The position numbers and the translations under genes were made by a program. Of a stretch of 64,000 nt of DNA, positions 31,825-63,399 are shown piece by piece; within the stretch, counting starts at the first letter, position 1, and every line of letters starts with the position of its first letter. This stretch comes from Lepiota brunneoincarnata (taxonomy: Eukaryota; Basidiomycota; Agaricomycetes; Agaricales; Agaricaceae). The notes under the pieces are model-generated. The model did not search any database, was not told where the DNA came from, and saw only the letters and a program-made list of their open reading frames with translations. The stretch is taken from contig JAEBUN010000007.1 in assembly GCA_023014365.1 (NCBI GenBank), positions 930,001 through 994,000 of the forward strand, read 5' to 3'.

Positions 31825-33812
31825 TGAAAAGGTAGAAATGTTCATGGGTTTTAATATAGATAAAGGGCTTGTTTTCACTAAGCTTAGCCAAAATTTGATA
31901 AGCTTAAGTTAATACAAGTAGTGTGAGATAGATAATGAACAGTTTCATCTTTTAGGGTGTTCTGGGGGTGCGTTCTGCCAGTGAAATTCAAGAGAGTAGT
32001 GTTTTTAGAGGTTAATGAACAGCCATTGAAATTATCTTAGCCATACGGTGCAACAGTGAAAGGACAATCCCTGTCAATTCAAAGCATGGGGTCTCTAGTC
32101 TCTGGTCTCTGGTCTCTGTCTCTGTCTCTAGCACTCTGGAACTCTAAACTCTGGACTCTATTCTCTGTCTCTGTCTCTGGGTTGGTTGACGACTGATGAA
32201 ATCACACTTAACAATGCACACTAAATAGTCCTCTGAAACCATTCTGGATCATGGCTTGCAGACTTGCATGTGGAAGCAGGAGTGAGACCTCTTGCTTCTC
32301 CATGAACAAGTGTGACTGTATTTATATTGTTTAGATACATATGAGAGATAGTAAATATGAAATAGAAAACAATAAGCTTAATTGTTACAGGTACTGCAGA
32401 ATACTTTGGAAGGTTTGGCAGCATTTCTACCTTGCCCTGGGTTATGGGTTTTTCTCTGATTGATGAATGGCAATCCAGCCAGACATGTTCTGTAAGGGGA
32501 CACCTCAGAGGCCTCAAAGACACTCCTAACATGTCCCACACCCCCAAAACCCCTCAAAGCGTCCCCTTACCCTCCAGCACACTATACCTTCCTCCCTTCA
32601 AATGCCAGAAGCCCCAGGATACCCAGAACAACCCAAGCACCCCATGAAGGTCCTCACAAGCCCTCCCTCTCCCCCTCCAGACTCCCCCTGACACCTCTCC
32701 TACATTCTCCTATTACCTGACACTCCCTTGTCACCATATTCACTCCCTCCTTTCATCCTTCCTTATTCCTGCATTAGCAGTGTTGGGACAGTTTGCTTCA
32801 CCCCCCTATTCATTAATATTGCTTATATAAGTCATGTATATACACAGTTTTCACCTGCAGGGGTCTCTTCATCCTACGAGCTTACGCTCGTGTGCCTTCG
32901 GCACACATATTTGGGTGACTTTGGCATTGTTTGACAAAGCACGCTGGACCTTCGGCCCGCACGTCAGAACGAAGGGAACAACTGCTGACATAATTACAAA
33001 AGCTGACCAATTCTGACTAAGCTGACTAATTCAGGGTCCACGTCCCATTCTTTATAGATTCTCTTAGGATTCCCCTGCAGGTAAGCCCTCCATATGTACA
33101 TACCTGGCCAATGACACTTAGGATTCCCCTGCAGGTTCGCCTCTGCTCCCCTCAGTTCCCCTGAGTTGCCTGGGCCCCCAGGTTGCCCTAACATGTTCCA
33201 TGCTCATCTGCATTATTCTGCATCCACGCGAGTGCATTAAGCCTCCAGATCAGTTATGATTGGAATGTATAGCAGATGGACAATCCCTTGATCTGTTGTA
33301 ATTAATCTCAGTTAGGCAGTATGCTGAGGTGCTGGGACCCACAAAGCACTTGTTAATTATGAGTCTTTGATATTTCTAGGGTTTTAGGCATCGGGTATCA
33401 TCTCCTGAATGTTGGACGTTCTGTTCCATGGTCCAGTCATCATTATTGGGCTCACTATAGGTGTAGTACACCTGTGACAGCTGCTATGTACATTCTTTAG
33501 GTTCAAACAAATCCAAGTTCATCAGAAAACTGCTTGTAAGGTCCCTTGATGCAACCAGAGTATACTCAATAGGCTATGTAGAGTCCTGAATTCCTCTGTA
33601 GAGCGTTCTGATAGCTTGGTTCACTAAGCTTAGTGATAATGAGCTGGTTTGAACACTTCCAAGGCTCAAATATCCTCAATTTGGTCAAACTGGCTACTAC
33701 AAGACATAGTACCAATCCTCTATAGAGTTCTTTAATGATATAGCCAGTGATTCTATGTAGAGAATTGTTCCAGAGTATGGAATTCATGTATAGGCATGAA
33801 ATTTGCATGTCA
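31825..33812 (-). mobile_element. LTR A: solo LTR of the Gypsy-1 family, interrupted by another solo LTR
   Basis: Homologous to the two LTRs of Gypsy-1 (42809-44152 and 53306-54611). It starts TGAAAAGG, ends in TCA, and without its 703-bp insertion is about 1.28 kb. No internal Gypsy-1 sequence adjoins it, so it is a solo LTR. It carries four TAAGCTTA sites at the same places as the other LTRs. Many CpGs of the Gypsy-1 LTRs are TpG or CpA here (for example GAAATGTTCATGGG for GAAACGTTCGTGGG), so it is older or more methylated. I see no clear target duplication (ACTGG on the left, CCTAG on the right). Confidence 0.88.
32491..33193. mobile_element. Solo LTR (703 bp) nested in LTR A, 5-bp TSD TGTTC
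   Basis: Begins TGTAAGGGGACACC, ends GTTGCCCTAACA (TGT...ACA), and is flanked by TGTTC at 32486-32490 and 33194-33198. Removing it restores LTR A compared with its two relatives. It holds a TATA-like TTATATAA near 32822 and a cluster of small hairpins at about 32876-32965 (ACGAGCTTACGCTCGT, GTGTGCCTTCGGCACAC). The internal region of this element family is not in the window. Confidence 0.85.
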
Positions 33813-34012
33813 CCTAGTATATGGATTGCACCCATGATCCCTGATCAAATATAGCAACCTCAGCCTGACAGACAACCCTGACAGGTTCAACCTGAACAAC
33901 CTCCAAGCCCTCCTACCCTGCCTGTTGTTGTTCCCCTACCTCCACACCACCACCCCAAACTCAACAACAAACCATGAACACTCTCAACAGATGACTGGAA
34001 GCCTGTACAGCA

Positions 34013-37230: not shown

Positions 37231-37864
37231 GATAAACTAAAGAAATTACTACAAAATTCAAGAGCCCCAACCAATGCACAAAAATAAAGGTGGCAGCTCA
37301 ATCAGTAGCACAGGAAAACTAGAAAAAAAGGCTACAAAATCTCATGAGCTCTAACTAACTTGGGTCTATTTGTGAAGTCATGCAGTGGCTTAATTGAATG
37401 AATAGTAGTTGAATAGTCACAAAAGGTCAGCAGCAGCTCAACCAGGCAAACGGTGGCTGCAACAGTAGAGAATTCAAGTATACATATGCTACTATTCAGA
37501 CAACTTGAATTTCTTGACCATTCCAGCTGCTGCTGACCTTTCATGACTATTCAGCTGCCGTTCGGTCAGTCAAGCAGCTGGATGGCTTGACACATACACG
37601 TATAGATATATTCTGCTAGTCAGATGACGTGAATTTCCTGAGTGTTCTAGCCACCATTCACCCGGTTGAGCCGCCACAGACCTTTCTTGACTATTCAGCT
37701 GTTGTTCAGTCAGTCAAGTAGCTAGACAACTTCAGACATGCACGTATAGATATATTCTACTAGTCTAATGACTTGAATCTCTTGAGTGCTCCAGCTGCCC
37801 TTCACCCAGTTGAGCCACCGCAGACCTTTCTTGACTATTCAGCTGTCGTTCAGTCAGTCAAGTA

Positions 37865-39470
37865 CAGTGACCCACAAAACCGTTCCAATGTTTTGTACTT
37901 TTGACTTAAAGTAGTAATAGCTCAGTAAATAAAATAGCCATATTTGTGAATATATTTATAAACATAGCCAAATATGTCATATCTGACTCTGCAAAGTTGC
38001 GTTATGTAATACTTCCAAATTAGGCAATTATGAATTTTGTAATCATTTTAAGTCATTGGAACGGTTTTGTCAATGACATATTATACTAGGCTATCCTATT
38101 ATTTCTAGTACTTCGAGTAGCCCCCCCTGGCTTTGAGTACAGCTGCTACTCTTCTAGGCATACTTTCAATTAACTTCTGACACTCAGAAGCTGGAATAGC
38201 ATCCCACTCCTTTTCTACCCTCTGCCACAACTCCTCCATACCCTTGGGAGGAGATTCATACTCTCCCAACTTTCTCTTCACATATTCCCATAAGTGTTCA
38301 ATGGGATTGAGGTCAGGTGACTGTGCTGGCCAGGTTAGGAGCCTAAAATGATTTTTTTGAAACCATTCTTTGGCCAGTGTACTCTTGTGTTTGGGGTCAT
38401 TATCTTGCTGAAAGATAATATCTTGGGGTTTAAGCTTGTACCACTGGAGACTCTTCTTCAAATCTTCCTCCAAAATTTGCACAAACAACTCTGCATCCAT
38501 CCTTCCATCAATCCTCACTGCATAGCCTGGGCCATCCCACAGCATACAGCCCCAAACCATCACTGATCCTCCTCCATACTTCAGAGTTCCCTTGACCAAT
38601 CTTTCACTAAGCCCCTCTCCCTTCTTTTTCCATCCCCACTTCCTCCCATCTGACCCCAAACAATTAATTTTGGTCTCATCAGACCATACAACCAGCTTCC
38701 AGTCCTCCATAGTCCAATGCTGGTGTGTCAGAGCAAAATCCAGCCTAGCCCTCCTATGCTTGTCAGAGAGTAAAGGCTTTTTTTGCTTGACTACAGCCTT
38801 CATTCCTGCCTGTTTGAGATGCCTTGCTACAGTCTGTGAAGAGACTGATGTCCCAATGATGGGAGCAAGAGATTTGGCTATATCTACAGCAGTTTCAGCC
38901 TTGCCAGCAGAGATAAGATGGATAGCATGCCAAATATTAGTGGTAGAGAGTTGTGAAGGATGTCCTCCAAGTGATTTAGTAAGGCTGGAACAATTTTTAG
39001 AGGCTAGCCTGGATATGGTACTGCGCCCAACACCAGTAATTGCCTCAATTTTAGTATAGGAATGATGAGAATTTAGCAAAGAGAGGATGGTTTGCTTTAG
39101 AGTAGAAGATAATGGCTTCATGGTAGGTAGGGGGGTTGAGAATGATGGGACATGGCTGTCAGCACATCTATTTATATGTCAAAGACACGTGGTCACATGA
39201 TCTTGTTGATTCACAATCAACAGAGTCATGTGATTGCTTGGATTAGTATTAAAAATTACTATTGACAAAACCGTTCCAATGACTTAAAATGCTTACAAAA
39301 TTCATAATTGCCTCATTTAGAAGTATTACATAACGCGACTTTGCAGGGTCAGATATGACATATTTGGCTATGTTTATAAATATATTCACAAATTTAGCTA
39401 TTTTATTTACTGAGCTATTACCACTTTAAGTCAAAAGTACAAAACATTGGAACAGTTTTGTGGGTCACTG
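37865..39470 (-). mobile_element. Tc1/mariner-type element, copy 2 (intact)
   Basis: A 1606-bp element with TA duplication at 37863-37864 and 39471-39472, inserted in AAG-TA-GCTAG of the 144-bp satellite; the uninterrupted version is visible in the neighbouring unit. Terminal inverted repeats of about 210 bp contain inverted inner copies of the tip motif as in copy 1. The transposase is open. By sequence it could be an autonomous element. Confidence 0.96.
38105..39121 (-). CDS. Tc1 transposase, DD34E, intact
   Basis: 338-aa cut-and-paste transposase. The N-terminal half (KPLSSTLKQTILSLLNSHHS; TKIEAITGVGRSTISRLASK) is a paired-like helix-turn-helix for binding the terminal repeats. The catalytic triad is D in VVWSDETKIN, D in IIFQQDNDPKHKS and E in SPDLNPIEHLW, with 34 residues between the second D and the E. 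It includes the GGGSVMVWGC block typical of Tc1. No stop or frameshift, in contrast to copy 1. There is no obvious intron. It probably can mobilise both copies. Confidence 0.96.
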   Translation of the reverse strand: MKPLSSTLKQTILSLLNSHHSYTKIEAITGVGRSTISRLASKNCSSLTKSLGGHPSQLSTTNIWHAIHLISAGKAETAVDIAKSLAPIIGTSVSSQTVARHLKQAGMKAVVKQKKPLLSDKHRRARLDFALTHQHWTMEDWKLVVWSDETKINCLGSDGRKWGWKKKGEGLSERLVKGTLKYGGGSVMVWGCMLWDGPGYAVRIDGRMDAELFVQILEEDLKKSLQWYKLKPQDIIFQQDNDPKHKSTLAKEWFQKNHFRLLTWPAQSPDLNPIEHLWEYVKRKLGEYESPPKGMEELWQRVEKEWDAIPASECQKLIESMPRRVAAVLKARGGYSKY

Positions 39471-39832
39471 TAGCTAGATGACTTCAGACATGCACATATA
39501 GATATATTCTACTAGTCCAATGACTTGAATCCCTTGAGTGTTCCAGCCGCCATTCACCTGGTTGAGCTGCCGCTGACCTTTCTTGACTATTCTAGCTAGA
39601 TGACTTCAGACATGCACATATAGATATATTCTACTAGTCTAATGACTTGAATCTCTTGAGTGCTCCAGCCACCATTCACCTGGTTGAGCCGCCGCTGATC
39701 TTTTGTGACTATTCAGCTGCCGTTCAGTCAGTCAAGCAGCTGGATGACTTTTTTTTTTTTTTTTTTTTTTTAATTCTGCATTTAACGTGGTGCCTGGTAG
39801 CAGTCCACGCTAGTCTACCTAATACAGAGAGA

Positions 39833-40957: not shown

Positions 40958-42806
40958 ATGAGAACTGGTCAGAGAACAAGTCTAATATGCAGTGGCCAGG
41001 CCTGGCTTCAGCACACAAGGCCTCAAAGCATTCGGTAGAATTGGCCATGAGAGAGTCCATCTCATCAAGAGGGCCCCTGGTCCTCTTCTGGATCCTAGGA
41101 GGGAGTAAAGCAAGGGACAGGGGATGTCTGACTGTAGACAAGCTTCCCTTATCAAGAAGAGAGTGGAGAGCATGAGTGTGGTGGAGAGTTTTAAGCCGAA
41201 GTGCAGCACGGTCTGCAAGCTTGCGAAGCTGAAGATGAATAGGGGTTAAATCTGCAATGGCTTCTGTACCACCTAAGGGGGATGTTCTGAAGGCACCAGT
41301 AATCCAGAGGGCAGCCTTGCGCTGGGCCTTCCTAAGCAAATCCAGCAGAGCCTTAATACGAGCACCCTGGAAGAACCAGAGCCGGTACCCATAAGTCATA
41401 ATGGGAACAATACAGGATTGGTAGAGCAGGCGCTTCTGGTTAGAGGAGAGGCCACGGATGGAGTTTCCAAGCATACCCATGGAGCGAACTGTGGTGAAAG
41501 CCTTAGTGGAGTAGAACTTCACATGGGCCTTGAAGGAGAGTCGGTGGTCAAACCAAAAACCCAGATATCTCCAGGTGGGGCGAGAGCGGAGGGGAGAGTT
41601 GCCAGTAAAAGGTGCAAAGCCAAGGTCCAGTGGAGGTGGCTCATCATGCCACCAGCGGGTGAAGTGGAAGACCTCAGTCTTACTATGCTCAAGCTCTAAG
41701 CCCATAGCAGTCATAATCCTGAAAATAGCAGAGTAACCCCTGCGCAGATGCTTGTGGCAGTACTCCCAATTATTACCCTGAACAACCAGAAGTCCATCAT
41801 CCACATAGGAGAGTACAGTAGCATCAATGCCCTCAGAGCAGGCCTCCTCATCAAATAGATAGAGAACAGGGGATACCATGAGAGCAGACAAGACAGGGGA
41901 AGCAACAGAGCCCTATCCCACACCAACACTGGAAGGGAATCACTCAGACTCCTCAGAGCCCCATACAAAGTGGGTATGTCGTCCTTGGAGATAGCTTTGG
42001 AAGAAATGGACCAGAGGGGCAGAGAAGCCTATCTTGCGCATGACCTCAAGCAGGACTGGATGACTGATACTGGGAAAGAACTGTGCAATATCAAAGGCAA
42101 GCACAGCAGTGACTTGACCCTTGGCCCACCCAGCATGGACAAGATGTGTGAGAAAGAGTCCTGCATCCTCAGTAGAGTGCTGGATGATTCCTCCAAGCTG
42201 GTTGGAGTGAAAGACAGCATTGCCAACAGCATCAAATTGCATGCGAGTAGCAATCATCTTCTCAAAGAGCTTCCCAAGTGTATTAAGAAGAGCAATAGGT
42301 CGGAAGGACTTGGGGGTGGAGTAGTCAGCCTTGCCAGGCTTGGGAATGACAACAGACCTAGAGCCCTTGAAGTACTCAGGCCACCTTCCAGAAGAGACAC
42401 AAGCATTGGCCAAGGAAAGAAAGAGGGAAGAGCAGGTCTCATTCCCTACAATGTGGCATAGATGGGCCCAGGTAATGTGGTCAGGACCTGGAGCAGAGCA
42501 GTTGGAGCAACCCCTCAGGGCATCTTGGAGCTCAAGGGCAGTGAAAGGAGCCCAAGATCTGGGCTGGCAATCCCAGAGAGGAGAGAGGATGTTCAGATCT
42601 ACAGGCCGGCCCTCAGTGGAGTTGAAGGAAGAGTGAAGAGCACCAAAAAGCTCATCCACATCATAAATAGCTTGGCCATTGAACTTCATGGCCTCGCAGG
42701 GGGGGAGGTTCCTAGGGCCAGTCCATTTCATAAGATCCCAAGGTCTCTGATTAGTAGATGCAATCTCATAGATATGAGCATCCATGTACTCCCTGCGTGC
42801 TACCCA
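40893..42806 (-). pseudogene. LINE reverse transcriptase, two stops
   Basis: The RT order is clear: GSRSVVIPKPGKADYS, KSFRPIALLNTLGKLFEKMI (motif 2), NQLGGIIQHSTEDA, VLAFDIAQFFPSISH (motif A), then VGVG-stop-GSVASPVLSAL (motif B) and TVLSYVDDGLLVV (motif C, YVDD), then the thumb. Two stops interrupt one frame: TGA at 41940-41942 and TAG at 41913-41915, the latter in place of the Gln of GQGS (CAG to TAG). Motif C is kept, but the protein is dead. Confidence 0.9.
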
Positions 42807-42808
42807 GG

Positions 42809-44152
42809 TGAAAAGGTGGTAACGTTTGTGGGTTTTAATATAGATAAATGGCTTGTTTTCACTAAGCTTAGTCGAAATTCGATAAGCTTAAGTTAATACA
42901 AGTAGTATGAGATAGATAATGAACAGTTTTGTCTTTTAGGGTATTCTGGGGGTGCGTTCTGACAGCAAAATTCAAGAGAATAGTGTTTTTAGAGGTTAAC
43001 GAACAGCCGTTGAAGTTATCTTAGCCATACGGTGCAACAGTGAAAGGACAATCCCTGTCAATTCAAAGCACGGGGTCTCTGGTCTCTGGTCTCTGGTCTC
43101 TGAACTCTGTTCTCTGTCTCTGTCTCTGTCTCTAGCACTCTAGAACTCTAAACTCTGGACTCTGTTCTCTGTCTCTAGCACTCTGGAACTCTAAACTCTG
43201 GACTCTGTTCTCTGTCTCTGTCTCTGGGTTGGTCAACGACCGAAGAAATCACACTTAACGACGCACACTAAATAGTCCTCTGAAACTGTTCTTGATCATG
43301 GCTCGCAGACTTGCGTGTGGAAGCGGGGGTGAGACCTCTTGCTTCTCCACAAACAAGCGCGACCGTATTTATATTGTTTAGATACATGCGAGAGATAGTA
43401 AATATGAAATAGAAAACAATAAGCTTAATTGTTACAGGTACTGCAGAATATTTTGGAAGGTTCGGCAGCATTTCTACCTTGCCCTGGGTTATGGGTTTTT
43501 CTCTGATTGACGAATGGCAATCCAGCCAGACGTGTTCTGTGCTCGTCTGCATTATTCTGCATCCACGCGAGCACAGTTAAGCCTCCGGATCAATTATGAT
43601 CAGAATGTATGGCGTATGTACAATCCCTTGATCCGTTGTAATTAATCTCAGTCAGGCAGTATGCCGAGGTGCCGGGACCCACAAAGCACTCGTTAATTAT
43701 GAGTCTTTGATATGTCTAGGGTTTTGGGCATTGGGTGTCACCTCCCGAACATTGGACATTCCGTTCCGTGGTCCGGTCATCATTATTGGGCTCGCTATGG
43801 GCATAATACACCTGCGACAGCTGCTATGTACATTCTTTAGGTTCCAACAAATCCGAGTTCATCAGAAAACTGCTTGTAAGGTCCCTTGATGCGACCGGAG
43901 TATACTTGATAGGCTATGTAAAGTCCGGAATCCCTCTGGAGAGTGTTCTGATAGCTCGGTTCACTAAGCTTAGTGATAATGAGCTGGTTTGAACACTTCT
44001 GAGGCTCGAATATCCTCAGTTCGGTCAAACTGGCTACTACGGGACATAGTACCAATCCTCTATAGGGTTCTTTAATGATATAGCCAATGATTCTATGTAG
44101 AGAATCGTTCCGGAGTACGGAATTCATGTATAGGCGTGAAATCGGCGTATCA
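42809..44152 (-). repeat. LTR B (3' LTR of Gypsy-1)
   Basis: 1344 bp, TGAAAAGG... to ...GGCGTATCA on the plus strand. TAAGCTTA at 42863, 42883, 43420 and 43965. It is about 38 bp longer than LTR C, mostly from an extra copy of the CTCTGTCTCT/GGACTCTGTT microsatellite at about 43080-43230. Confidence 0.93.
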
Positions 44153-44161
44153 TCTCCCCCT
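44153..44161 (-). other. Polypurine tract of Gypsy-1
   Basis: On the minus strand AGGGGGAGA directly precedes the LTR start TGATACGCC, the expected place for plus-strand DNA priming. Confidence 0.75.
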
Positions 44162-44492
44162 AACCAATTGCTGACTGTCCTCAGTCATTATCTCCTTCAA
44201 ATTCGCAGTATCTGAGTCTCTCTGATGCGCTCTATGTTCTAGAACATTCACCAGCTTCGAGAGTAGCATACTTTCGCTAAGCTTATTCCAAGATGATGTC
44301 ATGTCACTGAGTTTAAATGTATAGATCAACTTCTTGTTGCTATAGCCTAAATTTTTATCTCGTTATTGGGTCTTTTAAAAGTCCCAAGGTCTCGTTTCCT
44401 CTCTTTCGTTCTCCCTCTCACTTCTCACTCATCTATTTTCATCTCAACTTCCAGTCTTCTACACTCATCAGATATTTCTCTGATACTTCTGT

Positions 44493-46312
44493 GATGCCTA
44501 TTGACCCCTCCACACGCCGTGATCCGCAACATGTAGTGACCCAGCTCATCCGCTCCGGTTTACTTACAAGCCCAAACCAGCCTGTCCACGATGTTCAAAA
44601 AAGCTCTTTGCGAACGAAAAAGCTCGCGTCAAACTGTCAAACTGAAGCACCCCTTGGGACCCATCTCCCCCTAGCCAAATTGAAATCGGTGCCCTCACCG
44701 TTCCATCAGAATCCCTGTGCACACTGATAACCTGCAAGACCCTGGCGACATGTTACCTAATAAGGCAACTGTGGTTCAGCAAGTCTGTCGAAGGCTGGCT
44801 ACTCAAGATTACAGGTTTCCTATGCCTCTCAGGTCATAAGCTTAGGGTGGAGGGTGCTCTTCATCCACTTGTTATGATTTGTCATCACTGCCAATGGCCT
44901 TTTCTTATAAAAGCGAGGGAGCAACATCTCATTCTAGCAGACACCCTTCACAAGAAAATGGCTTCTTCTATCCCCCATCTCCAGGTCGAGCTCAACAATC
45001 TCATCAGCAACGCCAAAGGTCATCTTCAGCGCCTGCAAAACAGTCAAGTCGCTCATCCCCTTGTCGAGAAGGCTCTCCTTGCGTTCGACTGCTCCTGGGG
45101 TATGTCTATTCAGTTCCATGCTTCTCTCACCATTTCTAAATCATTTCTAGTCTGCTTATATTGAAGCAGTTATTGGAGGATAATGAGGCTATCAAGCTTC
45201 ATGTCAACCAGGACTACGTCTTCCATATCTGCAAGCTCTACGAAATTTACCAAAACAACTACCATTCGTCTTATGAGATGCCTGCAATCTATAAGGCTGC
45301 TCTCTGAATGCTGTAGCCGCATTAATCACATTTGCTCTGAGGAATCCCACAAAACCAGAACTGAAGAGGCTCAGAACCCATCATCCATGACTGGCTCTAC
45401 TTCCTCCAATGTTGCTGAAGGCTCTGCTGTCCCCAAATGTGTAAGCTTAGCGTTCTTTTGGCTCCAATCGTCTTCTCATGTATAAGCTTAGCCTCGCAAA
45501 GGTTGCAAGGCCCCTGTCTCTGCTGCTGTTGTGGTAGACGCCGATACCTGAGCTTGCTGAGAGTATGACCAGTGCTTCCAACTCCTGAGCAACCAGGTGC
45601 TGACACGGTAATATAGCGGCTTCTCAACCTATTACATCAGGCTGAGATAATCGCTCATCTTCAGGACATGATGGTCAATGAGGAGGTCTCTCAAGCTATC
45701 GTCGAAGAGGTTCATGTAGTCTCGCCTTATCGCAAGCGTCGTTTGTCTACCTCCGACATGGTGCGCCAGCTCTACTCCCCCTAACCACTGATTCTGACTT
45801 CATCCTTTGCTAGGAGGCTGTCAAAAAGGCCTCCTCGTCTAAAGGCACCGTCTGTCTTCTTCCCTATTGTCAAGTTCCCAATATGAACACTAAACACTGC
45901 TGTTATGCCCAGGCTGAACAGATTCTAGCCAAAGCCAATGCCAATACTGCCAAGCGTGCCCGTACCGAGTTTACTTCCGATGAGCAGCACCTTTGCAGGC
46001 TTATCTGGTGGGCAATTTCTCACTTCTATTTGCTAAGCTTAATGGTTCTGACACTTCTCCCGGGCAGCTCGTTTGCTCCAGAAACTCCAAAACCTCCTGT
46101 CTCACTCTTGCAACAAGTACGAGTCTGAATCTTGCAGTGGCGATGCTCGGTCAGTCAAATGTGACCTCAATTCGCTCAGCCGGGACTTCATCGATGCTAT
46201 TCCCTTGCTCGAAGCCAACTTAAAGAGGTTCCAATTCCTCATTCAAGAGCGCATCCATCTCAAAAGCCTTTTGCGCAACCTCTCCGACTTGGACAAGTCC
46301 TCCCCTGCTTAA
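44493..46312 (+). CDS. Antisense spliced-looking region inside Gypsy-1, unknown product
   Basis: On the strand opposite to pol, several coding-like pieces join by standard introns. ATG 44493 opens MPIDPSTRRDPQHVVTQLIR. Later pieces are LNNLISNAKGHLQRLQNSQV, DNEAIKLHVNQDYVFHICKL and TGSTSSNVAEGSAVPKC. A 51-nt intron (45441-45491) then keeps phase into PRKGCKAPVSAAVVVDADT. AEIIAHLQDMMVNEEVSQAI ... RRLSTSDM joins by a 53-nt intron (45761-45813) to EAVKKASSSKGTVCLLPYCQ ... NANTAKRARTEF. The last piece (LQKLQNLLSHSCNKYESESC ... LRNLSDLDKSSPA) ends at TAA 46310, itself part of a TAAGCTTA. Several joins are unresolved, so the full protein is not established. I recognise no domain; helices look coiled-coil-like. 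Antisense accessory ORFs are known in some LTR elements, but I cannot link this to one. Confidence 0.5.
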
Positions 46313-46388
46313 GCTTAACGCTTTTACAGTCCCCAGGATAGTTTTCCTTCGATAAGTAGATAGTTCTGTCCACAATATCAGGTTTTTT

Positions 46389-47714
46389 CTATCCCTCCAA
46401 CTCTTCTGGCTCCCATCTGTCACTAGGCTCATCCTCAGTAGTCTCCTCCAGGGTCTTCAGTCCCTCTGGCAACAGATCTAACAACTCTTGTAACTCCAGC
46501 GGCAACGGCATATGTTTTCTGGCTAAGTAGGGAATTACTCTGAACGCCACCACTTTATTCTGCCATACAGAACCATCCAACTCTGCCAGGATATAAGATC
46601 CTCCCTTTGATCTAGATATGACCACCATGGGTCCTAGATACCTGGGTTTCATCTTCCTGTCTGCTGAGCTCTCTATAGCTGTGTTTCTCACTAATACTAA
46701 ATCTCCCGGGCCGAAGCGATAATCTTTTATCTTATGTGCTGCTTGTCATTCCATCTCCCAAGCCTTGCTAAGCTTAGTGTCTGAAACACGCTGACGCACC
46801 TCCTCAACATGCCGAACATGTTTTGCCAAAGCCTGAGCTCAGTATCCTATCAACTCGGCCGTGGTTAAGTACTTATTCGGTAGTTGTACTAGCCAAGTGG
46901 CCTCTTTGACATCCAGAGGTAGCGTTGGGTGTGCTCCAGTTACCAGAAAGTATGGGGAACACCCCATTCCTTTTCTAATGGTTATCCGATCTGCCCACAT
47001 AATGTGCGGTAGGTGCCAATACCACTTTTTGACATCTCCATCTGTAGCTTTGTACAACATTTGCCACACATCCCAGTGGGCTCTTTCAATAATCCCGTTC
47101 ACTTTGGAATTGTAAGGAGATATCGTTACTCCTTTTATCCCATATTTTTCTTCCAGCCATCAAACAGCTTTCTTAAATGGAGAACTGTTGTCCATGACAA
47201 TCTTCACTATACAGCCCCATCGGCAAATGATATCTTCAAATAACCACTGCACAATTGAACTAGCATTCTCTTTTCTCAAAGCTTTTGCCTCCATCCAGGA
47301 TGACAGTCCACACCTTCCATGCACAATGTAGCTACACCCATTAGAACTTGGTGTCATATGTAGTGTGTCCACATGTAGCACTTGGAATATTCGATGGCGT
47401 GGGCAGTTACTATTGGCAGGTGTCTCGATGATCGCCTTTTGCCATTGCTGGCATAGATGGCACGATTGCACATACCAAGCTATGTCTCCTTCAACTTCCG
47501 GCCACCAGAACCTCTGTGTTATAAGCTTAGTGGTTGTGTATATTCCTCTGTGTCCTAGGAAGTCATGGCTGGCTTGCAACATATACATACACTGCTCCTT
47601 ATCCACTACTAGCTGATGTTGACCGCTAGGACTTGTCCTATACAGTCTCCCCTCTTCATCCAAGAAGAAATGCTCCACCATATACTTAAGCTTATGCAGA
47701 TCTGGCTCATCCAA
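46389..47714 (-). pseudogene. Gypsy-1 integrase, three stops
   Basis: HHCC zinc finger: SHDFLGHRGIYTTTKLITQ and VQSCHLCQQWQ. Catalytic D in FQVLHVDTLHM, D in IVKIVMDNSSPF and E in NGIIERAHWD. C-terminal SH3-like part: [40 protein letters not shown]. In-frame TGA at 47160-47162, 46839-46841 and 46746-46748, each where an Arg would fit (before WLEEKYG, in GY-AQALAKH and in ME-QAAHKI). No chromodomain is seen. Confidence 0.9.
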
Positions 47715-47783
47715 GCCTTCAGCTGCGCTACTGCCCCCTGTTTTCAGGAATTCCCTGACTTTGGGTATTCTTCTGTCTTGTAT

Positions 47784-48609
47784 TCACGCTGTATCTGTCC
47801 TACACGATTCATCATACGCTTCCTCTATCTTGGTCAACTTTTCCTCTTCGAAATCTGGCACTAGCCTGACATCTGTCATTAAGCTTAGTACTTGTCGGTA
47901 GTTTTCTGGGCACGCTGGGTCTTCTATAACCCTAAGCTTAGCCTGTTGTTCATCCAAGTACTCTTCCTGAGCCTGATCCAGCTCATACTCAAAATCATAC
48001 ACATCACGTGCCAGACCCTGGTTGAAGCCAGAGCGACTGTCGATCTCATCACAGAAGGCTTCCAAGGGTAATGGATCTGCAGCCCCCGGATCTTCTTTGA
48101 TCAACTCAAACTCCTCTCCCTCGTCCTCGGATCCGTTGTCAAAACGATGGGCTGTCTCATCACCGGGATAGTAACGTTGTCTGGACAGTCCATCCAGCCC
48201 AAATGTCTTCCCTTCTTTGTGTACTAGCGTGAAGTGGAATGATCTAATGAAGTCCACCCAATGGTTTACAGTAGCGTTCGGGAGTTTTCCTGGGTTGTTT
48301 AACATCCCAAAGAGAAACTTCGCATCTGTTTCCACTACTAGATTTCTCGATCCCCACAATAAATATTTCTCCTGTTCCAACACCATTCTTAATGCCGCAT
48401 AGCTCTCGCTTGGGCTGAGAATACCTCTGCTGTCTCTCGTCCAATAATATTGACCCAAACTTTGCATAATGTATAAGCTTAGCGTCTTCTACATCTCTCT
48501 GATATATATAGTATCCCACCGCCCTCCATGAGGTATCCATGGCTACTACTATGGGTTGTTTACTCAGAAATTCGGGGTTCCTGGTCGGGAAAACAGCGCT
48601 GAATCGCAT
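47784..48609 (-). pseudogene. Gypsy-1 RNase H region, frame change
   Basis: IVVAMDTSWRAVGYYIYQRD opens the RNase H fold, DERQQRYSQPKRELCGI follows, then after a frame change near 48400 ESYAALRMVLEQEKYLLWGS, LVVETDAKFLFGMLNNPGKL and VHKEGKTFGLDGLSRQRYYP. The last motif marks the end of RNase H. An acidic linker to integrase follows. Confidence 0.85.
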
Positions 48610-48677
48610 CTTTCAGCTCCTGCTGCGCTTTCTGTTCATTTTCTCCCCATTCAAACTCTTGTCCCTTCTTAAGCTTT

Positions 48678-50146
48678 TCATATAGAGGTGCAGCAATGGC
48701 TATGAACTTCGGGATATGATTCCTGCAGCGCGTTAGCTGTTCCTAGAAAACCCCTTAGCTCTGAGACATTCTTGCAATCCCCCCATCTTAAAATTTTTCT
48801 GATGGTGTCTGTGGTGGGCAACCATCCTTTATAGGAGCATTCAAAACCCACTATGGTGATTTCATCAGCGCAGATAGTCGTCTTGGGCCCAGAGAAGGTT
48901 CCCCCTACGTATTTCATCCTCTGTAGAATCCTATTGACCGTCTGCATGTGTTCCCATACAAATCGTCGGATCCCTGGGTTCTTTTTCAACATCTCTTCAG
49001 TGCCATCTGGCAACTCAGTATCTGGTTTTCAGGTTCTCTGATAGGTACATCATCTATGTACGGCATTGTGTATTCTGGTATCTCACTGGCTAGGATCGCT
49101 GTTACATTCTCATGAAATATAGGCACTGAATTGGTCCATCCCATAGGTAGCGTCACTAAGTGTAGCGCTCCAAAAGGCATCTGGAACGTTGTTAAGTCCC
49201 GAGACGACTCAGCTAACAATCGCTTGTCATATCCAACATACAGATCCAGGATGCCTCCACAAGCCCTGCCTGCAAAGTGCATTGCCAAATCTTCCATTGC
49301 TGGCGGCAGCCCTGAATGCGCTATTGTTACTCTGTTCAGCGGTTCCAAGCTGTGTACCAGTCTCAAACTTTTTCCATCTTTCTTTACCACACAGAACCAT
49401 CTGGATCTATAGGATGAGTTTGACGGCTCGTATACACCAGCACTAATCTTTCTTTTTATAATGGCACAGACTTCATCATAGATTGCTGGTGGAATCGGAA
49501 TGGGCTTTTCAACCCACGGAGTATGTTCTACCATCGGTATCTCGATCAGCGGGAAGAAATCTTCCCTAAAACATCCCTTTTCCTCATCTATCCAGGCGAA
49601 TGCCTTCTCTTGAAGCATCATGATGTGGTGCATCAGCTTTCTTTCCTCTGGCCACAAGAAATCCCCTGCATGGGCTTCGTCCAGCTTAAGCTTACGCTCC
49701 TCAGTATATCTGCCTGTAGGGACAAACTCTGGAGGATGCATGCTAAGCTCAGGCATTTCTGCCAGCGGTTCCCCTTTTATTTCTCGTTTTATCCTGAATC
49801 TCTCTGGTAAATCACCCAACATTGGCCTCACTTTTAAGGCTACTGGTTTATATTTCTTCCCAGCCAGGCATTGTACCGTATCTTCGTCATCTTCTTCTGT
49901 TTCGAAGATAGTTATTCCCTGGTCCTCTGTGCCCTGCGCATTAGCTATGCATCCTAGGCACAATAACGCCGTCGCTTTATCTTCTTGTGGACAGTCCTCA
50001 TCGCGTATGACTCGGTCAATGAACATTAGCTGTAGCTTGGCCTCTGAGAAGCTTCCTTTCGCTAAGCTTAGTGTCTGTGCGACAACAGGGCCCTTCTCAT
50101 CATCATAGTCTATTATACAAGCCACCTCTCCTTGTCCCTTAGTCAA
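48678..50146 (-). pseudogene. Gypsy-1 reverse transcriptase, frame-shifted
   Basis: The first frame (50146-48986) holds RWFCVVKKDGKSLRLVHSLE, GGILDLYVGYDKRLLAESSR, FGALHLVTLPMGWTNSVPIF and the catalytic YIDDV of MPYIDDVPIREPE. A frameshift near 49000 continues in the 49013-48678 frame with MKYVGGTFSGPKTTICADEI and ISELRGFLG-like thumb motif (NVSELRGFLGTANAL). TAAGCTTA at 50063 encodes TLSLA and at 49687 encodes RKLKL. Confidence 0.9.
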
Positions 50147-50315
50147 CTCATCGAGGTTTCTTGAAAAATTTGACTGTTTTCTCTAAGCTTAAGAGGATTA
50201 CACTCTCCTCGAGCATAAGTTGGCAACACAGCCCTTTCTCTGGTATTTGGGTCCTGTAATAACCAAGGTTTGCTCGCCACTGACACTATTCCTGACTTCG
50301 CTAGCTGTCATTACA

Positions 50316-51705
50316 TCAAACGGTCATCCCAGCAGTACTCGATATGTGGGGTTGCGAAACTATGTGAACTTGCAAATAGATTGTGACTCCCCTGCAGGTA
50401 AAGCCTACATTCTTTGCCAACCCACAAGTCTTTTCAACCTGCCCATTCGCACTCTGCAAATTAATCGTAGTGTCTGGGTCCCAAGAAACTTGACATGCAA
50501 TCGCCGCTTCCTGACTCATGGATACGATCTGTGACCCACTATCTAGCAAGGCCTCTTCCTGCCGAATCCCATTTATCAGAGTCAGAACTACTCTCAACTG
50601 GTTCGCATTCTTTAGCAATAAACACTTGCCGTCCCCTGTCTCTTCTGGGAAGTGACTCCAAGTACTGCATGATTGGATCCTGAGCTACCCAGGCTTGTGT
50701 TGCCAAGCCTTCTCGGAGCACTGTATCATACTTCTGAGAGCCATCTGCCAACTCCAGTTATCATAACCTGTACTGGTCCCACTATTAATTTCCATATCTT
50801 CTGTATCATCTTCCAAGGGCCCAACTCCTGCTATTAAGCTTTGATTTGTGGGTACCCGTTTTCTCATAATTCGCTCTCTATAAGTGTTCCTGTATAAAGG
50901 TGACAATGCCAAGAGTTCTCCATGCGATACTGAGGCTTCTCGCTTCAATACCCTGCTGAGTACTTCCTCAACATCGACATTCCTCTCTATAGGGGCCTGG
51001 TGCTTATACACAGGCTCCTTCTTAGATGATTCCATCCTTCTGACAGGCAGTGGTGGTACCTCAACGACCGGGCGCAGTGGTTTCACATTCCTATATGGTA
51101 ATTCCCCTGCTGCTGCACAGCAGTGGTTTCTCCGTTGTCTGCCCTATTTCCTCATTTTCTGATTCTTCTGATCGCTTGGAATCCAACGCAGTCCTCAGGA
51201 GTCTGTCCTCTGGCGAAGGCAACCTTCTTCTTCAGAGCCGGCTCCTTCCTTGAACCCTTTAGAAACCCGACTCCGAGTTCCAAGTCTTTGCGCCACTCCT
51301 GGTGTCCAAATACTGGCTTGCCGAGGGCGTACCATCTGTCAAACCACTAAGCTTAGCCTGTATCTGGGCCAATTGCTTGGCCAAAGACTGTATCTCAACA
51401 TTATCATCCTTTCTGGTCATAAGCTTAACCTTTGGGGCACTCCCAGCATGGATGGCAGCTGTTTCCAACATTTCCATGCGCTGCTTCAGATGGCGGATTT
51501 CTTCTTCTGCTGGCGACCTTTGGTTTTCTGACCTCGGGAATGCTTTCTGTGCAAACACTGCTGCCGCTGGCACTTGTGGTAACTCAGGCTCAACCTCCGG
51601 CAGTTCTGGTACCTGAACGAAGAGTTGTCCCTTTGTCGCATAGTACTTTGCCACTTTCTCTTTAATAGGCCCTTCTCCTCGAGGGATACTCGAGCTGTCT
51701 CCCAT
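50316..51705 (-). pseudogene. Gypsy-1 gag-pro region in several frames
   Basis: Three pieces: 51705-51259 (opens MGDSSSIPRGEGPIKEKVAK; coiled-coil EEEIRHLKQRMEMLETAAIH), 51086-50685 (KRVPTNQSLIAGVGPLEDDT) and 50618-50316 with the aspartic protease motif EALLDSGSQIVSMS. The first is in the same frame as gag behind a single TGA at 51733-51735. A shift lies between 51259 and 51086. Whether the TGA is a mutation or a programmed readthrough cannot be told here. Confidence 0.75.
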
Positions 51706-51732
51706 ATATATTTTGTTCCCTTCGACTCTAAT

Positions 51733-53220
51733 TCAGCCGGCTTGTTTATCCGCCTCCATGTCTGGGCAGAATAACCAACTATGCCCCAATAACCAACAGT
51801 AGAAACACTTGCGATCGGAAAGCGACCCTGCCGGCCCACTTCCGGTATTCCTCTGAGTGTGATTATAGCCAGCATGATTATGTCTGTCCTTCGCCAAACT
51901 CTCTAAGTATGATTTTAAAGTATGCCCCTGGATATTCATGAGGTCCTTAAGCTCAGCGAGACTGCCTGCCATCTGCAAGACTTCATCCTGAAACTTCTGC
52001 TTTAAGCTTTGCAGCTCACACTTTACTACAGGGTCATAAGTCCCTGTTCCGGATGTTGCAGGTGGATGGCTCATCGATGCCGAGTTCACCAGCCTTGAAT
52101 CCTGATGAAGGGATCGCATAAGTGTTTTGCCAATCGAAATTTCGACGGCTTTATCCACGACAACCCTCCAATCATAGGGGTCCTCTTCGCATAAATCCTT
52201 CGCAGTTAGTGCCAACCCATCGCTCGCAGTTCTATGCGCCCCGGTGATCGCTAATCTTGCATTGAGTACGTCCTGGAACACAGAGTCCAGTGCACTTGTA
52301 AATAACTTGACTAGCTCTCGGTTCGAGACTACCGCTGGCAACTTCAGGCACTTCTCTGCTTCTAGAATGAATCGCCTTTTGAAGTCCAAGACTCTATGCT
52401 CCTCATTCATCGCAATGCCTCTACTCTCTGCGCAGAGTTCCCTCAATTGTCGCACTGAGCCCTGCTCGGCTGCCACAGTCTCGGGATACTCTTTCTTCAA
52501 TCTCTCTACGAAGCCTGTCCAGCTTCCTGCTGGGAACTCCGCAAAACTCATCCACTCTTCACAGATATCCTGGTCCACATATGACACTGCCCAATTTATC
52601 CTTTCTGCATCGTCCGTCATCTTTGTTATCGTGAAGAGCTGTTCAAGCATCCAGAGATAATTTCTCAATGTCTGTGGTTTTGATGCATCCCATCTGGGCG
52701 CATTATTGCTAAAGGGAATTGGCATATGCTTGTGTCCCATTTTACTAGCTGTAGTCGTCGTAGATGGCGTAGTTTGGTTTGTCTGTACAGTCGGAGTTGA
52801 CTGTGATATCTGTGGTACCATAGAGGCACCAGGAGGGTTCGTATGAAACGAGTTTTGGTTTGTAAATGCTAAGCTTAGCGTAGGAATGGTCTGACCATCC
52901 TGGCTTTTGGTGTGCAGAATATGCGCTATGTTGCGAGCTGAGGCTGGAAGCCTTATAGTAATTCTGGGAGCAGTAGAGATCGGCAGTGCGACCTCTCTCG
53001 ATACTGCAACTACTAAACCGCTCGCTGTGCTCACAGTTATAGAACTAGTAGGATCTTTTTGCTTTCGAGAGGTACTAGCGGCGACGAGGCCTTCAGAACC
53101 TTCCAGACGATTAGAATTCCGAGTAGTTCTCTGTTTTGGGGGGTCGACCTTCCTGAGACTGCTCTCAAAGGATGTTTTGGGTGACTTTACAGTCTTTGCT
53201 TGAACCTTTTTCTGCTTCAC
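51733..53220 (-). CDS. Gypsy-1 gag, with zinc knuckle
   Basis: 495 codons from MKQKKVQAKTVKSPKTSFES. A Ser/Thr-rich N-terminus leads to the capsid-like segment RWDASKPQTLRNYLWMLEQL, ERINWAVSYVDQDICEEWMS and TGFVERLKKEYPETVAAEQG, typical of agaricomycete Gypsy gag. It ends in CFYCWLLGHSWLFC, a CX2CX4HX4C nucleocapsid knuckle, just before TGA at 51733. This is the only long undamaged Gypsy-1 ORF. TAAGCTTA at 52870 encodes TLSLA. Confidence 0.9.
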   Translation of the reverse strand: MKQKKVQAKTVKSPKTSFESSLRKVDPPKQRTTRNSNRLEGSEGLVAASTSRKQKDPTSSITVSTASGLVVAVSREVALPISTAPRITIRLPASARNIAHILHTKSQDGQTIPTLSLAFTNQNSFHTNPPGASMVPQISQSTPTVQTNQTTPSTTTTASKMGHKHMPIPFSNNAPRWDASKPQTLRNYLWMLEQLFTITKMTDDAERINWAVSYVDQDICEEWMSFAEFPAGSWTGFVERLKKEYPETVAAEQGSVRQLRELCAESRGIAMNEEHRVLDFKRRFILEAEKCLKLPAVVSNRELVKLFTSALDSVFQDVLNARLAITGAHRTASDGLALTAKDLCEEDPYDWRVVVDKAVEISIGKTLMRSLHQDSRLVNSASMSHPPATSGTGTYDPVVKCELQSLKQKFQDEVLQMAGSLAELKDLMNIQGHTLKSYLESLAKDRHNHAGYNHTQRNTGSGPAGSLSDRKCFYCWLLGHSWLFCPDMEADKQAG

Positions 53221-53290
53221 AGGTGAAAGGCAGGCCAGTGTTCAAGTCTTTTGGTGTTTGTCTTGTGAAATTCAACTGAAAACCCCCCTT

Positions 53291-53303
53291 GCGGTGGGCT
53301 CCA
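53291..53303 (-). other. Primer binding site of Gypsy-1
   Basis: Minus strand TGGAGCCCACCGC, two bases inside LTR C. It starts TGG as complement of a tRNA CCA end and would pair with a tRNA 3' end GCGGTGGGCTCCA. Which tRNA is not known to me. Confidence 0.7.
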
Positions 53304-53305
53304 GA

Positions 53306-54611
53306 TGAAAAGGTGGAAACGTTCGTGGGTTTTAATATAGATAAATGGCTTGTTCTCACTAAGCTTAGTCGAAATTCGATAAGCTTAAGTTAATACAAGT
53401 AGTATGAGATAGATAATGAACAGTTTTGTCTTTTAGGGTGTTCTGGGGGTGCGTTCTGACAGTGAAATTCAAGAGAATAGTGTTTTTAGAGGTTAACAAA
53501 CAGCCGTTGAAGTTATCTTAGCCATATGGTGCAACAGTGAAAGGACAATCCCTGTCAATTCAAAGCACAGGGTCTCTAGTCTCTGGTCTCTGGTCTCTGA
53601 ACTCTGTTCTCTGTCTCTGTCTCTGTCTCTGTCTCTAGCACTCTGGAACTCTAAACTCTGGACTCTGTTCTCTGTCTCTGTCTCTGGGTTGGTCGACAAC
53701 CGAAGAAATCACACTTAACGACGCACACTAAATAGTCCTCTGAAACTGTTCTTGATCATGGCTCGCAGACTTGCGTGTGGAAGCGGGGGTGAGACCTCTT
53801 GCTTCTCCACAAACAAGCGCGACCGTATTTATATTGTTTAGATACATGCGAGAGATAGTAAATATGAAATAGAAAACAATAAGCTTAATTGTTACAGGTA
53901 CTGCAGAATATTTTGGAAGGTTCGGCAGCATTTCTACCTTGCCCTGGGTTATGGGTTTTTCTCTGATTGACGAATGGCAATCCAGCCAGACGTGTTCTGT
54001 GCTCATCTGCATTATTCTGCATCCACGCGAGCACGTTAAGCCTCCGGATCAATTATGATCAGAATGTATGGCGTATGTACAATCCCTTGATCCGTTGTAA
54101 TTAATCTCAGTCAGGCAGTATGCCGAGGTGCCGGGACCCACAAAGCACTTGTTAATTATGAGTCTTTGATATGTCTAGGGTTTTGGGCATTGGGTGTCAC
54201 CTCCCGAACGTTGGACATTCCGTTCCGTGGTCCGGTCATCATTATTGGGCTCGCTATGGGCATAATACACCTGCGACAGCTGCTATGTACATTCTTTAGG
54301 TTCCAACAAATCTGAGTTCATCAGAAAACTGCTTGTAAGGTCCCTTGATGCGACCGGAGTATACTTGATAGGCTATGTAAAGTCCGGAATCCCTCCAGAG
54401 AGCATTCTGATAGCTTGGTTCACTAAGCTTAGTGATAATGAGCTGGTTTGAACACTTCCGAGGCTCAAATATCCTCAGTTCGGTCAAACTGGCTACTACG
54501 GGACATAGTACCAATCCTCTATAGGGTTCTTTAATGATATAGCCAATGATTCTATGTAGAGAATCGTTCCGGAGTATGGAATTCATGTATAGGCGTGAAA
54601 TTGGCGTATCA
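53306..54611 (-). repeat. LTR C (5' LTR of Gypsy-1)
   Basis: 1306 bp with the same ends as LTR B and only a few differences apart from the microsatellite. TAAGCTTA at 53360, 53380, 53880 and 54424; the last lies in the 14-bp palindrome CACTAAGCTTAGTG. Confidence 0.93.
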
Positions 54612-61965: not shown

Positions 61966-62739
61966 CCATGTGTGAAGTCATGCAGTGGTTTAAATGGCTA
62001 AACAACAGCTGAAATAGTCAAGAAAGATAAGTGGTGGCTCAGCTTAGTGAACAGCAGCTAGAACAGCCAAGAAATCCAAGCCATCCAGCCGCCTGACCAA
62101 CTGAACAGCAGCTGAATAGTCACAAAAGATCAGCAGCGGCTCAACTGGGTGAACGGCGGCTGGAGCACTCAAGAGATTCAAGTCATTAGACTAGTAGAAT
62201 ATATCTATACATGCATGTCTGAAGTCATCTAGCTACTTGAGTAGTCAAGAAAGGTCAGCGGTGGCTCAACTGGATGAACAGCGGCTGGAGCACTCAAGAG
62301 ATTCAAGTCATTAGACTAGTAGAATATATCTATACATGCATGTCTGAAGTCATCTAGCTAGAATAGTCAAGAAAGGTCAGCGGCGGCTCAACTGGGTGAA
62401 CGGTGGCTGGAACACTCAAGAGATTCAAGTCATTGGACTAGTAGAATATAGATAATCTATACGTGCATGTGAAGTCATCCGGCTGCTTGACTGAAGATGA
62501 ATAGTCAATACTTGAGTGCTCCAGCCGCCGCTGACCTTTCTTGACTATTCTAGCTAGATGACTCCAGACATGCACATATAGATATATTCTACTAGTCCAA
62601 TGACTTGAATCTCTTGAGTGTTCCAGCTGCCGTTCACCCAGTTGAGCTGCCACTGACCTTTCTTGACTACCCAGCTGCCACCATGTCAGTCAAGTAGCTG
62701 GACAATTTCACACATGCATATATAGATATATTCTAAGTC
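61966..62739. repeat. 144-bp satellite array 2
   Basis: Starts GTGAAGTCATGCAGTGG like array 1, has reverse units (TATATCTATA at 62200, 62325) of about 122-125 bp, switches orientation at about 62505, then forward units with TATAGATATA near 62577 and 62721, 144 bp apart. It ends at the stop codon of the TET/JBP-like gene. Confidence 0.85.
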
Positions 62740-63399
62740 TTAATCATCTATGAGCATTCCATCTACCTCCTTCAACTCCATTTTCTCAACAAAGTCTGAC
62801 TGCTTTGACCAGCCAGGAATTTCCACACCTAACTTCTTGTATATTGCCTCTTTCATGTAGAAGGCATATACCACCCTGTCCCCATGTTCCCAATGCCCAA
62901 CCCCATGTTTTAGCAAACATCCACATAGGAAAACACCAGTACCAGAGGGGTACGAAAGTGTTATCTTTAACTCTGGTAGTGACAAATGAGTGTCATCACC
63001 ATGGGTCCCAAGGCTTACTAGGAGGTCATAACATGTCCAGTGTGCTCCCCTATCCTTATGGCTTTCAGTGATTCTGTTAAGGATTACTGTTATCCCTGAG
63101 AAGCAGGAATGCCACTCATCGGCATACTCCTTTGTTTCAGGTAATGTGCACAGTTTTGACAAGGATGCTTGACCTGATTCATAGAGAGTGGGGTGTGTGA
63201 GCGCGAGTGCCTTGTTGAGAAGCTCAGTTGAAGGCCAAATCATCTTGAGCCATTCCTTGCTACTGGTGTTTTTTTTTAATGTACTAGAGGTTACCAGTCT
63301 CGCCTTGGAACTATTCTGGTAATTCAAGCATAGAGCATGAGTTGGGTGTGTAGTATCAGTAATGAGAGGATACACACTGCATGTCCAGCAGGAATCCAA
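62740..63399 (-). CDS. TET/JBP-type 2-oxoglutarate/Fe(II) dioxygenase (5' end incomplete)
   Basis: Fungal TET/JBP oxygenases can oxidise 5-methylcytosine. The reading frame of about 219 residues carries the full active site: GITVILNRITESHKDRGAHW with H-x-D (SHKD, residues 114 and 116), YDLLVSLGTHGDDTHLSLPE, LSYPSGTGVFLCGCLLKHGV with the distal His (165), and GDRVVYAFYMKEAIYKKLGV with the 2OG-binding Arg (175), then PGW. This layout (HxD, strand, LxHxV, GDRV) fits agaricomycete TET/JBP proteins. The N-terminal part (HPTLYESGQASLSKL; WPSTELLNKAL) also fits. The frame is closed upstream by a stop near 63424, so the first exons are missing or spliced in; an acceptor at CATGCAG (about 63382) is possible. 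The stop is at 62740, touching the satellite. Such genes are often linked to DNA transposons in fungi; none is visible here. Confidence 0.8.
   Translation of the reverse strand: MDSCWTCSVYPLITDTTHPTHALCLNYQNSSKARLVTSSTLKKNTSSKEWLKMIWPSTELLNKALALTHPTLYESGQASLSKLCTLPETKEYADEWHSCFSGITVILNRITESHKDRGAHWTCYDLLVSLGTHGDDTHLSLPELKITLSYPSGTGVFLCGCLLKHGVGHWEHGDRVVYAFYMKEAIYKKLGVEIPGWSKQSDFVEKMELKEVDGMLIDD

Follow-up and report, generated by a model that had tools for sequence, protein, structure and literature searches.

Described systems and the element examined

VANDAL elements are DNA transposons of plants. In the available parts of two papers (PMC5735166, PMC10398659), they are described as recognizing their own copies in a sequence-specific way: in Arabidopsis, the element-encoded binder VANC acts against silencing in a sequence-specific manner. 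The subject of the present analysis was a Gypsy element at positions 42809-54611 (minus-strand sense) of a 64,000-nucleotide stretch of Lepiota brunneoincarnata DNA (contig JAEBUN010000007.1, positions 930,001 to 994,000; the whole stretch is called the window). The 8-bp palindromic word TAAGCTTA is present in this element 26 times, and longer copies of the same family carry two antisense genes, X and Y, the former encoding a zinc-cluster-like protein.

The family resembles the VANC system, as far as described in those parts, in that a short word is highly enriched in a single family but scarce outside it, the binder is the product of an accessory gene of the element (shown there, a candidate here), sites are found in accessory-gene introns (predicted here), and a related family lacks the word (PMC5735166, PMC10398659). 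In the same sources, the VANC motifs are same-orientation, noncoding tandem repeats, read as non-palindromic (PMC5735166, PMC10398659), whereas the family described here consists of long terminal repeat (LTR) retrotransposons and has a palindromic, dispersed word that was probably gained by point changes. Among known systems, VANC on VANDAL transposons is the closest in its way of working; the window element was not classed as a member, since palindromy, dispersal, and coding sites differ.

The insulator of the Drosophila gypsy element is one cluster of Su(Hw) sites for a host zinc-finger protein. The element examined here shares with it repeated protein-binding sites (putative in this case) within a Gypsy element, but the sites extend across 11.8 kb, including the two LTRs, and are not confined to one cluster. 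In Retand Gypsy elements of plants, the region from pol to the 3' LTR contains antisense open reading frames (ORFs), and according to the available part of PMC11963269 they match the present family in that this region is long and has antisense genes, one of whose proteins has predicted DNA-binding ability. Retand proteins carry TRP28 in that source, whereas a six-cysteine cluster is found here, and no dispersed word is described for Retand in the part of PMC11963269 available. TRP28 (PF04195) had no match among eight antisense ORF pieces. In the open-licence literature, no paper with both 'TAAGCTTA' and 'retrotransposon' was found, and among the matches listed there was neither element-encoded anti-silencing in LTR elements nor any fungal Gypsy element with antisense genes of the zinc-cluster type.

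Abundance of the word in the element

All 26 positions listed in a preliminary description of the window were exact, and no further ones were present within 42809-54611. Eight of them are in the LTRs: 42863-42870, 42883-42890, 43420-43427, and 43965-43972 in LTR B, and 53360-53367, 53380-53387, 53880-53887, and 54424-54431 in LTR C. Four additional copies reported for a further LTR of the family, LTR A, were also recovered (31879-31886, 31899-31906, 32373-32380, and 33625-33632). In 100 dinucleotide shuffles of the whole window, the word was expected 0.62 times on average and three times at most. With 26 copies, it ranked first among the 8-mers of the element, ahead of the next non-shifted one with 15. 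CTGTCTCT and its shifted forms were the next commonest 8-mers, with 15 copies in 42809-54611; they were outside the top list of the interior and are probably LTR-borne.

The interior (9148 bp) contained 18 exact words and five one-mismatch forms, the latter being close to the expectation of ~4 (from ~0.3 per word). The near matches TAAGCTTT noted earlier by eye are present, but they start at 48670, 50835, and 52003, one or two bases off the approximate positions given.

Ten of the 18 internal sites are located in sense ORFs. Codon-preserving shuffling, proposed earlier as a check, was applied to six sense ORF stretches (4968 bp) and gave a mean of 0.147 and a maximum of 3 in 5000 shuffles, so similar counts were not obtained. 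The sites had been said to occupy all three frames of pol; in fact only two coding phases are used, because the third would read TAA as a stop. Phase 1 is found at 47880-47887 (LSLM), 48474-48481 (LSLY), 50063-50070 (LSLA), and 52870-52877 (LSLA, in gag), and phase 2 at 47522-47529 (TKLI), 47687-47694 (HKLK), 47933-47940 (AKLR), 49687-49694 (RKLK), 51348-51355 (AKLS), and 51420-51427 (VKLM). The remaining internal sites include 50184-50191 in gag-pol, immediately upstream of the reverse transcriptase (RT) stop-to-stop ORF, 46769-46776 in the 3' part of pol, and 44278-44285 between LTR B and the position where gene X starts in the longer copies. The use of two codon phases, together with the sites that lie in LTRs, in predicted introns, or ahead of gene Y, supports the earlier proposal that selection acts on DNA or RNA, not on protein.

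Distribution in the genome and in the sister family

In the 55.6-Mb genome, TAAGCTTA was found 5370 times and the reversed word (the same letters backwards) 842 times; a 14-mer containing one LTR site had 565 occurrences. The word was clustered: in the first 876 kb of one contig (C1), 94 of the 100 listed places had another less than 2 kb away, and the six lone ones corresponded to 6.8 per Mb, compared with 15.1 per Mb for the control word. The word is thus enriched in one family and rare in the rest of the genome, the outside-cluster rate resting on those 876 kb, with element identity checked for part of the clusters and part of the transposable element families covered.

This distribution bears on the possibility that a host DNA-binding protein reads the array as an insulator, enhancer, or tether, like Su(Hw) on the gypsy insulator. 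Host proteins acting on retroelement sites have precedent, and the conservation given below resembles that of protein sites. However, with the word at or below chance outside the clusters, a host regulator would have few other exact sites, and the sites are spread over the whole element, not over one control region. A host reader was judged unlikely.

The closest other family, a sister Gypsy family, was 50-53% identical in the RNase H region and 66-71% identical at the DNA level where alignable. One TAAGCTTA was found in the 10.3 kb common to the two sister copies read and, with more of the 3' side included, one in 15.6 kb; the array is therefore absent. As cognate words of the sister family, GGGCCCTA was rejected, its stronger signal coming mostly from LTR repeats ~130 bp apart, and GTTAACTA (p 10^-6.3 before correction for ~33,000 words) was kept as a weak candidate only. 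Copies 58-75% identical in RNase H were considered as intermediate families, and five were examined. Four proved to be degenerate members of the window element's own family, with 91-94% DNA identity in their main matches and 87% in one short piece, and the fifth (L075) was sister-like.

Conservation of the sites among copies

Sites in pol, the 3' part, and the LTRs were compared between copies. For pol, the window was compared with 29 other pol-covering copies, which had the highest scores among at least 151 RNase H matches; they were 91.7-95.8% identical to the window copy over the main match. Seven of the eight sites compared were intact in 27-29 of 28-29 copies (96-100%; mean 99%): 29/29 at 46769, 47522, 47687, 47880, and 48474, 28/29 at 47933, and 27/28 at 46310. 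Background intactness was 62.6% for all 8-mers, 59.8% for 8-mers of the same composition (n = 71), and 64.6% for CpG-free 8-mers. Of 3591 rotations of the site pattern, 5 reached the seven-site mean and 19 the eight-site mean; the eighth site had been excluded post hoc, after its variability was seen.

The eighth site, 49687, was intact in 16 of 27 copies, and 11 copies of another subfamily had a site 57 bp away instead. At that position (49744-49751) the window copy reads TAAGCTCA (TGAGCTTA on the sense strand), and the other subfamily has the full TAAGCTTA. Each alternative differs by one transition between the subfamilies, and one degenerate copy (L073) has both, so that site turnover is seen within the family.

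In the LTRs, 45 of 46 scored cells were intact, or 34 of 35 without the reference LTR and two repeat loci (L022, L065); the mean for all LTR 8-mers, duplicates included, was 61%. Single LTR sites were unremarkable, being equaled by 21-31% of LTR 8-mers. The preliminary description had suggested aligning family members and had held that members lacking the motif would speak against it; the other members examined keep the sites.

At six alignable coding sites the sister family has other residues, e.g. RKEQ for RKLK and VKEQ for AKLR. The sites were therefore probably gained in the lineage of the window family by substitutions, some of them protein-changing; loss in the sister family is the alternative.

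The sites might also persist mainly through recent common descent, hitchhiking in the expansion of the family, with a function that is past or now absent. Much of the sequence is indeed common at the identities given above, and roughly one 8-mer in four is unchanged in every copy. Nevertheless, the sites are jointly more intact than 8-mers of equal composition in the same copies, and descent leaves the origin of 18 exact interior words unexplained. Persistence by descent was regarded as quite improbable, and selection on the exact word is well supported.

Palindromy, flanks, and spacing

Other 8-bp palindromes occurred 47 times in the interior, compared with ~36 expected (9148/256), and none of them more than twice. 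The arms had been thought to extend the palindrome often, but this was not borne out: the positions ±1 to ±5 were complementary in 8, 8, 4, 5, and 4 of 22 sites, with shuffled means of 7.7, 5.6, 7.0, 4.1, and 5.8. One base was preferred at the first flanking position: 23 of 44 half-sites had G 3' of the core (C 5' of it), and two had the opposite. Spacing was irregular, as reported, with a coefficient of variation of 0.80 against 0.95 for random placement (18.5% of random sets were at or below 0.80). Gaps of 540-560 bp had raised the idea of regular, nucleosome-like spacing, which was rejected: four pairs were 530-562 bp apart and 1.4 were expected (P 0.054), the distance window having been chosen post hoc, and the best distance window anywhere was matched by 86% of random sets.

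These results bear on an RNA-level role, in which UAAGCUUA in the genomic RNA would drive RNA-RNA contacts or packaging into particles. The word is self-complementary, its presence in the LTRs and the interior would put most copies within genomic RNA, and other 8-bp palindromes are slightly over expectation. However, no other 8-nt palindrome, though equally able to pair, is found more than twice in the interior, the flanks are without extended pairing, and near matches are few. An RNA signal was considered improbable. The slight excess of palindromes as a class, the flanks no more symmetric than by chance, and the random-like spacing disfavor generic fold-back, RNA kissing, and periodic structure and favor a protein that reads the exact word, which seems to count more than palindromy as such. 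Among the roles offered earlier, a protein-binding array and a self-recognition site fit best, whereas a pairing or packaging signal is disfavored by the counts of other palindromes and by the flanks.

Antisense genes X and Y

Two longer copies of the family (L070 and L069) were read through their 3' regions and carried antisense ORFs in the stretch that separates pol from the 3' LTR. Compared with the window copy, they hold ~2.2 kb extra, including gene X, at a point corresponding to 44422-44448. The gene could not be noticed in the preliminary description, because the window copy is without it. The model of gene X runs from an ATG at 4511 to a stop at 2481 of L070. It carries CPSCAARKLECEPLGKGKKCRSCDLYNYPC, with the spacing C-x2-C-x6-C-x8-C-x2-C-x6-C, which fits the fungal zinc-cluster pattern C-x2-C-x6-C-x5-12-C-x2-C-x6-9-C, and the six cysteines are invariant across L070, L069, and a paralogue (L077). 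The likeness to fungal Zn2Cys6 proteins (Zn_clus, PF00172) thus includes six cysteines, matching spacing, and, by eye, a possible helical region after the cluster; X differs from them in being below the Pfam cut-off and in a proposed target without CGG.

Between L070 and L069, the zinc exon had a synonymous divergence (dS) of 0.345 and a nonsynonymous divergence (dN) of 0.015 (dN/dS 0.04), and the C-terminal exon a dS of 0.706 and a dN of 0.036 (dN/dS 0.05); dN/dS was 0.16 in the middle exon and 0.21 in the N-terminal exon. The genome had 133 matches to the zinc exon and 143 to the C-terminal exon, some being fragments of one copy. Gene Y starts at 1795 of L070, and two of its exons had a dN/dS of 0.07 between L070 and L034. 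Genes X and Y therefore exist under purifying selection. In the window copy, gene Y (44958-46312, plus strand) is damaged: it starts at 44958, its end is approximate, and the exon layout of its 3' part is provisional, as assigned from the L070 ORFs, the splice model, and the selection result. Exon 1 had a dN/dS of 0.67 against the damaged window copy, and for exon 2 the comparison is meaningless, as the frame is broken. Synonymous divergence between L070 and L069 was higher in X (0.34-0.91) than in the Y exons (0.14-0.27), which suggests recombination between subfamilies in the 3' region.

The word was also found in and around these genes. It is placed at the donor of a predicted X intron and at both ends of a predicted Y intron, namely the 5' splice site (GTAAGCTTAG, 45442-45449) and the 3' splice site (TATAAGCTTAG, 45483-45490). 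Another site (44837-44844) precedes the start of Y by ~115 bp and is close to a TATAAAA, one (46034-46041) is perhaps in a Y intron, as judged by eye, and one (46310-46317) is near the 3' end of Y. Within X and Y, the word thus appears to be placed where the protein is least disturbed. The splice sites are predictions, and the scorer favors GTAAGT-like donors.

A role of the word in splicing or transcript processing, as a GTAAG donor and YTTAG acceptor that spread along with the antisense genes, would account for the three X and Y sites that are predicted donors or acceptors, with the same reservation about the predictor. It would not account for 18 of the 26 sites, 10 of them in sense ORFs and 8 in LTRs, since introns are not expected there, nor for the open frames of up to 1261 residues across the RNase H region in other copies; it was held to be very improbable.

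Gene X is also present in the sister family (10 matches at ≥75% identity). In two sister copies inspected by eye, the six cysteines were correspondingly placed, with CISVGSVTC or CISVGLVTC for CAARKLEC, so that the differing loop (ISVGSVT or ISVGLVT for AARKLE) is between the second and third cysteines. The loop differs in a family whose DNA is without the array and for which no word was established. A paralogue of ~60% identity was found on C35 (L077, 2798-3375) and C60 (L078), stop-free in both exons. Its synonymous sites were near saturation, and the proportion of nonsynonymous differences (pN) was 0.22-0.24. The paralogue keeps CATRKLEC and is set between old direct repeats, ~76% alike; it is possibly a captured host gene or a non-autonomous element. 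A histidine kinase-like ORF, as judged by eye, is some kilobases away. Two distant X matches (33-36%) were found on C5 and C6, and a large protein collection gave no X homologue outside this genome at E ≤ 1e-3.

Proposed mechanism and points against it

An exactly kept palindrome is most readily explained as a site to which a DNA-binding protein attaches as a dimer. We propose that TAAGCTTA is a dispersed, sequence-specific site for such a protein and that it marks the copies of one Gypsy family along their LTRs, coding sequence, and introns, being kept exact by selection on propagating copies. The likeliest binder would be the element's antisense-encoded zinc-cluster-like protein X, alone or with protein Y. 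It would act only on DNA with many sites and would in this way distinguish element copies from the remaining genome. As a result, the copies might stay transcribable or free of silencing, as with VANC on VANDAL transposons.

As a whole, this reading, a VANC-like self-recognition array read by X alone or with Y, was given a probability of about 0.5. Its parts differ in strength. The enrichment of the word, its family specificity, its conservation, the site turnover, and the existence of X and Y under purifying selection have support from the results. That the word forms a selected protein-binding array of some kind is likely. For X or Y as the binder, the odds are about even. Activation or anti-silencing as the outcome, in preference to repression or another use, is less certain still; action as a dimer is inferred. 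The fullest version is doubtful: point mutations in the LTRs, genes, and introns of the LTR element would have given rise to a palindromic code specific to the family, read by the element's own antisense zinc-cluster protein, which would act on its own family alone. The C35/C60 paralogue could then be a regulator of this family that the host has captured.

Several observations weigh against the proposal. Zinc-cluster proteins classically read CGG-type triplets, and the word is without CGG. Protein X missed the Pfam Zn_clus gathering score (17.2 bits in L069 and 13.3 in L070, compared with 21), and its only match among solved structures was the zinc-cluster protein RSC30, at E 6.3. The paralogue with the near-identical loop (ATRKLE) was without TAAGCTTA in the 9.7- and 6.0-kb stretches examined on C35 and C60. 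No comparably strong word is present in the sister family, where GTTAACTA occurs just 8 times, so that a second pair does not show a one-protein-one-word relation. As to conservation, 25.8% of 8-mers were intact in all copies, so a single conserved site is unremarkable and only the joint pattern is remarkable; the 29 copies share recent descent, are not independent, and are the best-scoring of at least 151. Finally, 10 of 18 internal sites are in sense ORFs and the spacing is irregular, whereas VANC targets, in the parts of the sources available, are noncoding tandem repeats.

If the proposal is true, a dispersed exact word in a fungal retrotransposon, even in its coding sequence, would suggest an independent origin of the strategy. 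It would also offer a short, family-specific target with which to test how mobile elements tell copies of themselves apart from the DNA of the host.

Other features of the element and the window

The element has the features of Ty3/Gypsy elements, i.e., LTRs with TG...CA ends followed by gag, RT, RNase H, and integrase in this order; integrase was assigned by Pfam, and RT and RNase H through relatives and position. All of these parts are on the minus strand. LTR C (53306-54611) is the 5' LTR and LTR B (42809-44152) the 3' LTR; they are 95.3% identical, their ends were checked, and a purine tract is found just inside LTR B. LTR A (31823-33815, minus strand) has an interruption of ~0.7 kb. The gag-like part is a stop-to-stop ORF of 502 aa (51733-53241) with a zinc knuckle near its end, seen by eye; it had no match in a Pfam search. 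The RT part of pol (48986-50182) had no Pfam match at E 0.1 and was assigned through 1072 homologues, several of them marked PF00078, PF17919, or PF17917; no relatives were found when it was searched in viral contigs. The RNase H part (47784-48488), also without a match in Pfam, had at least 151 matches in its own genome. The N part of the integrase (47160-47783) matched Integrase_H2C2 (PF17921, E 2.2e-15).

The window copy has several defects: broken frames, ~2.2 kb missing from the 3' region, and no matching target-site duplication (CCAGG before 42809, ACGTT after 54611). A minus-strand ORF at 41940-42887, non-LTR reverse transcriptase-like by eye, runs into LTR B and was perhaps interrupted by the insertion of the element. 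At the end of the window, 63405-64000 matches LTR-region sequence of the sister family at 95-96%. Positions 37375-39750 and 61967-62740 share complex direct and inverted repeats of about 73-94%.

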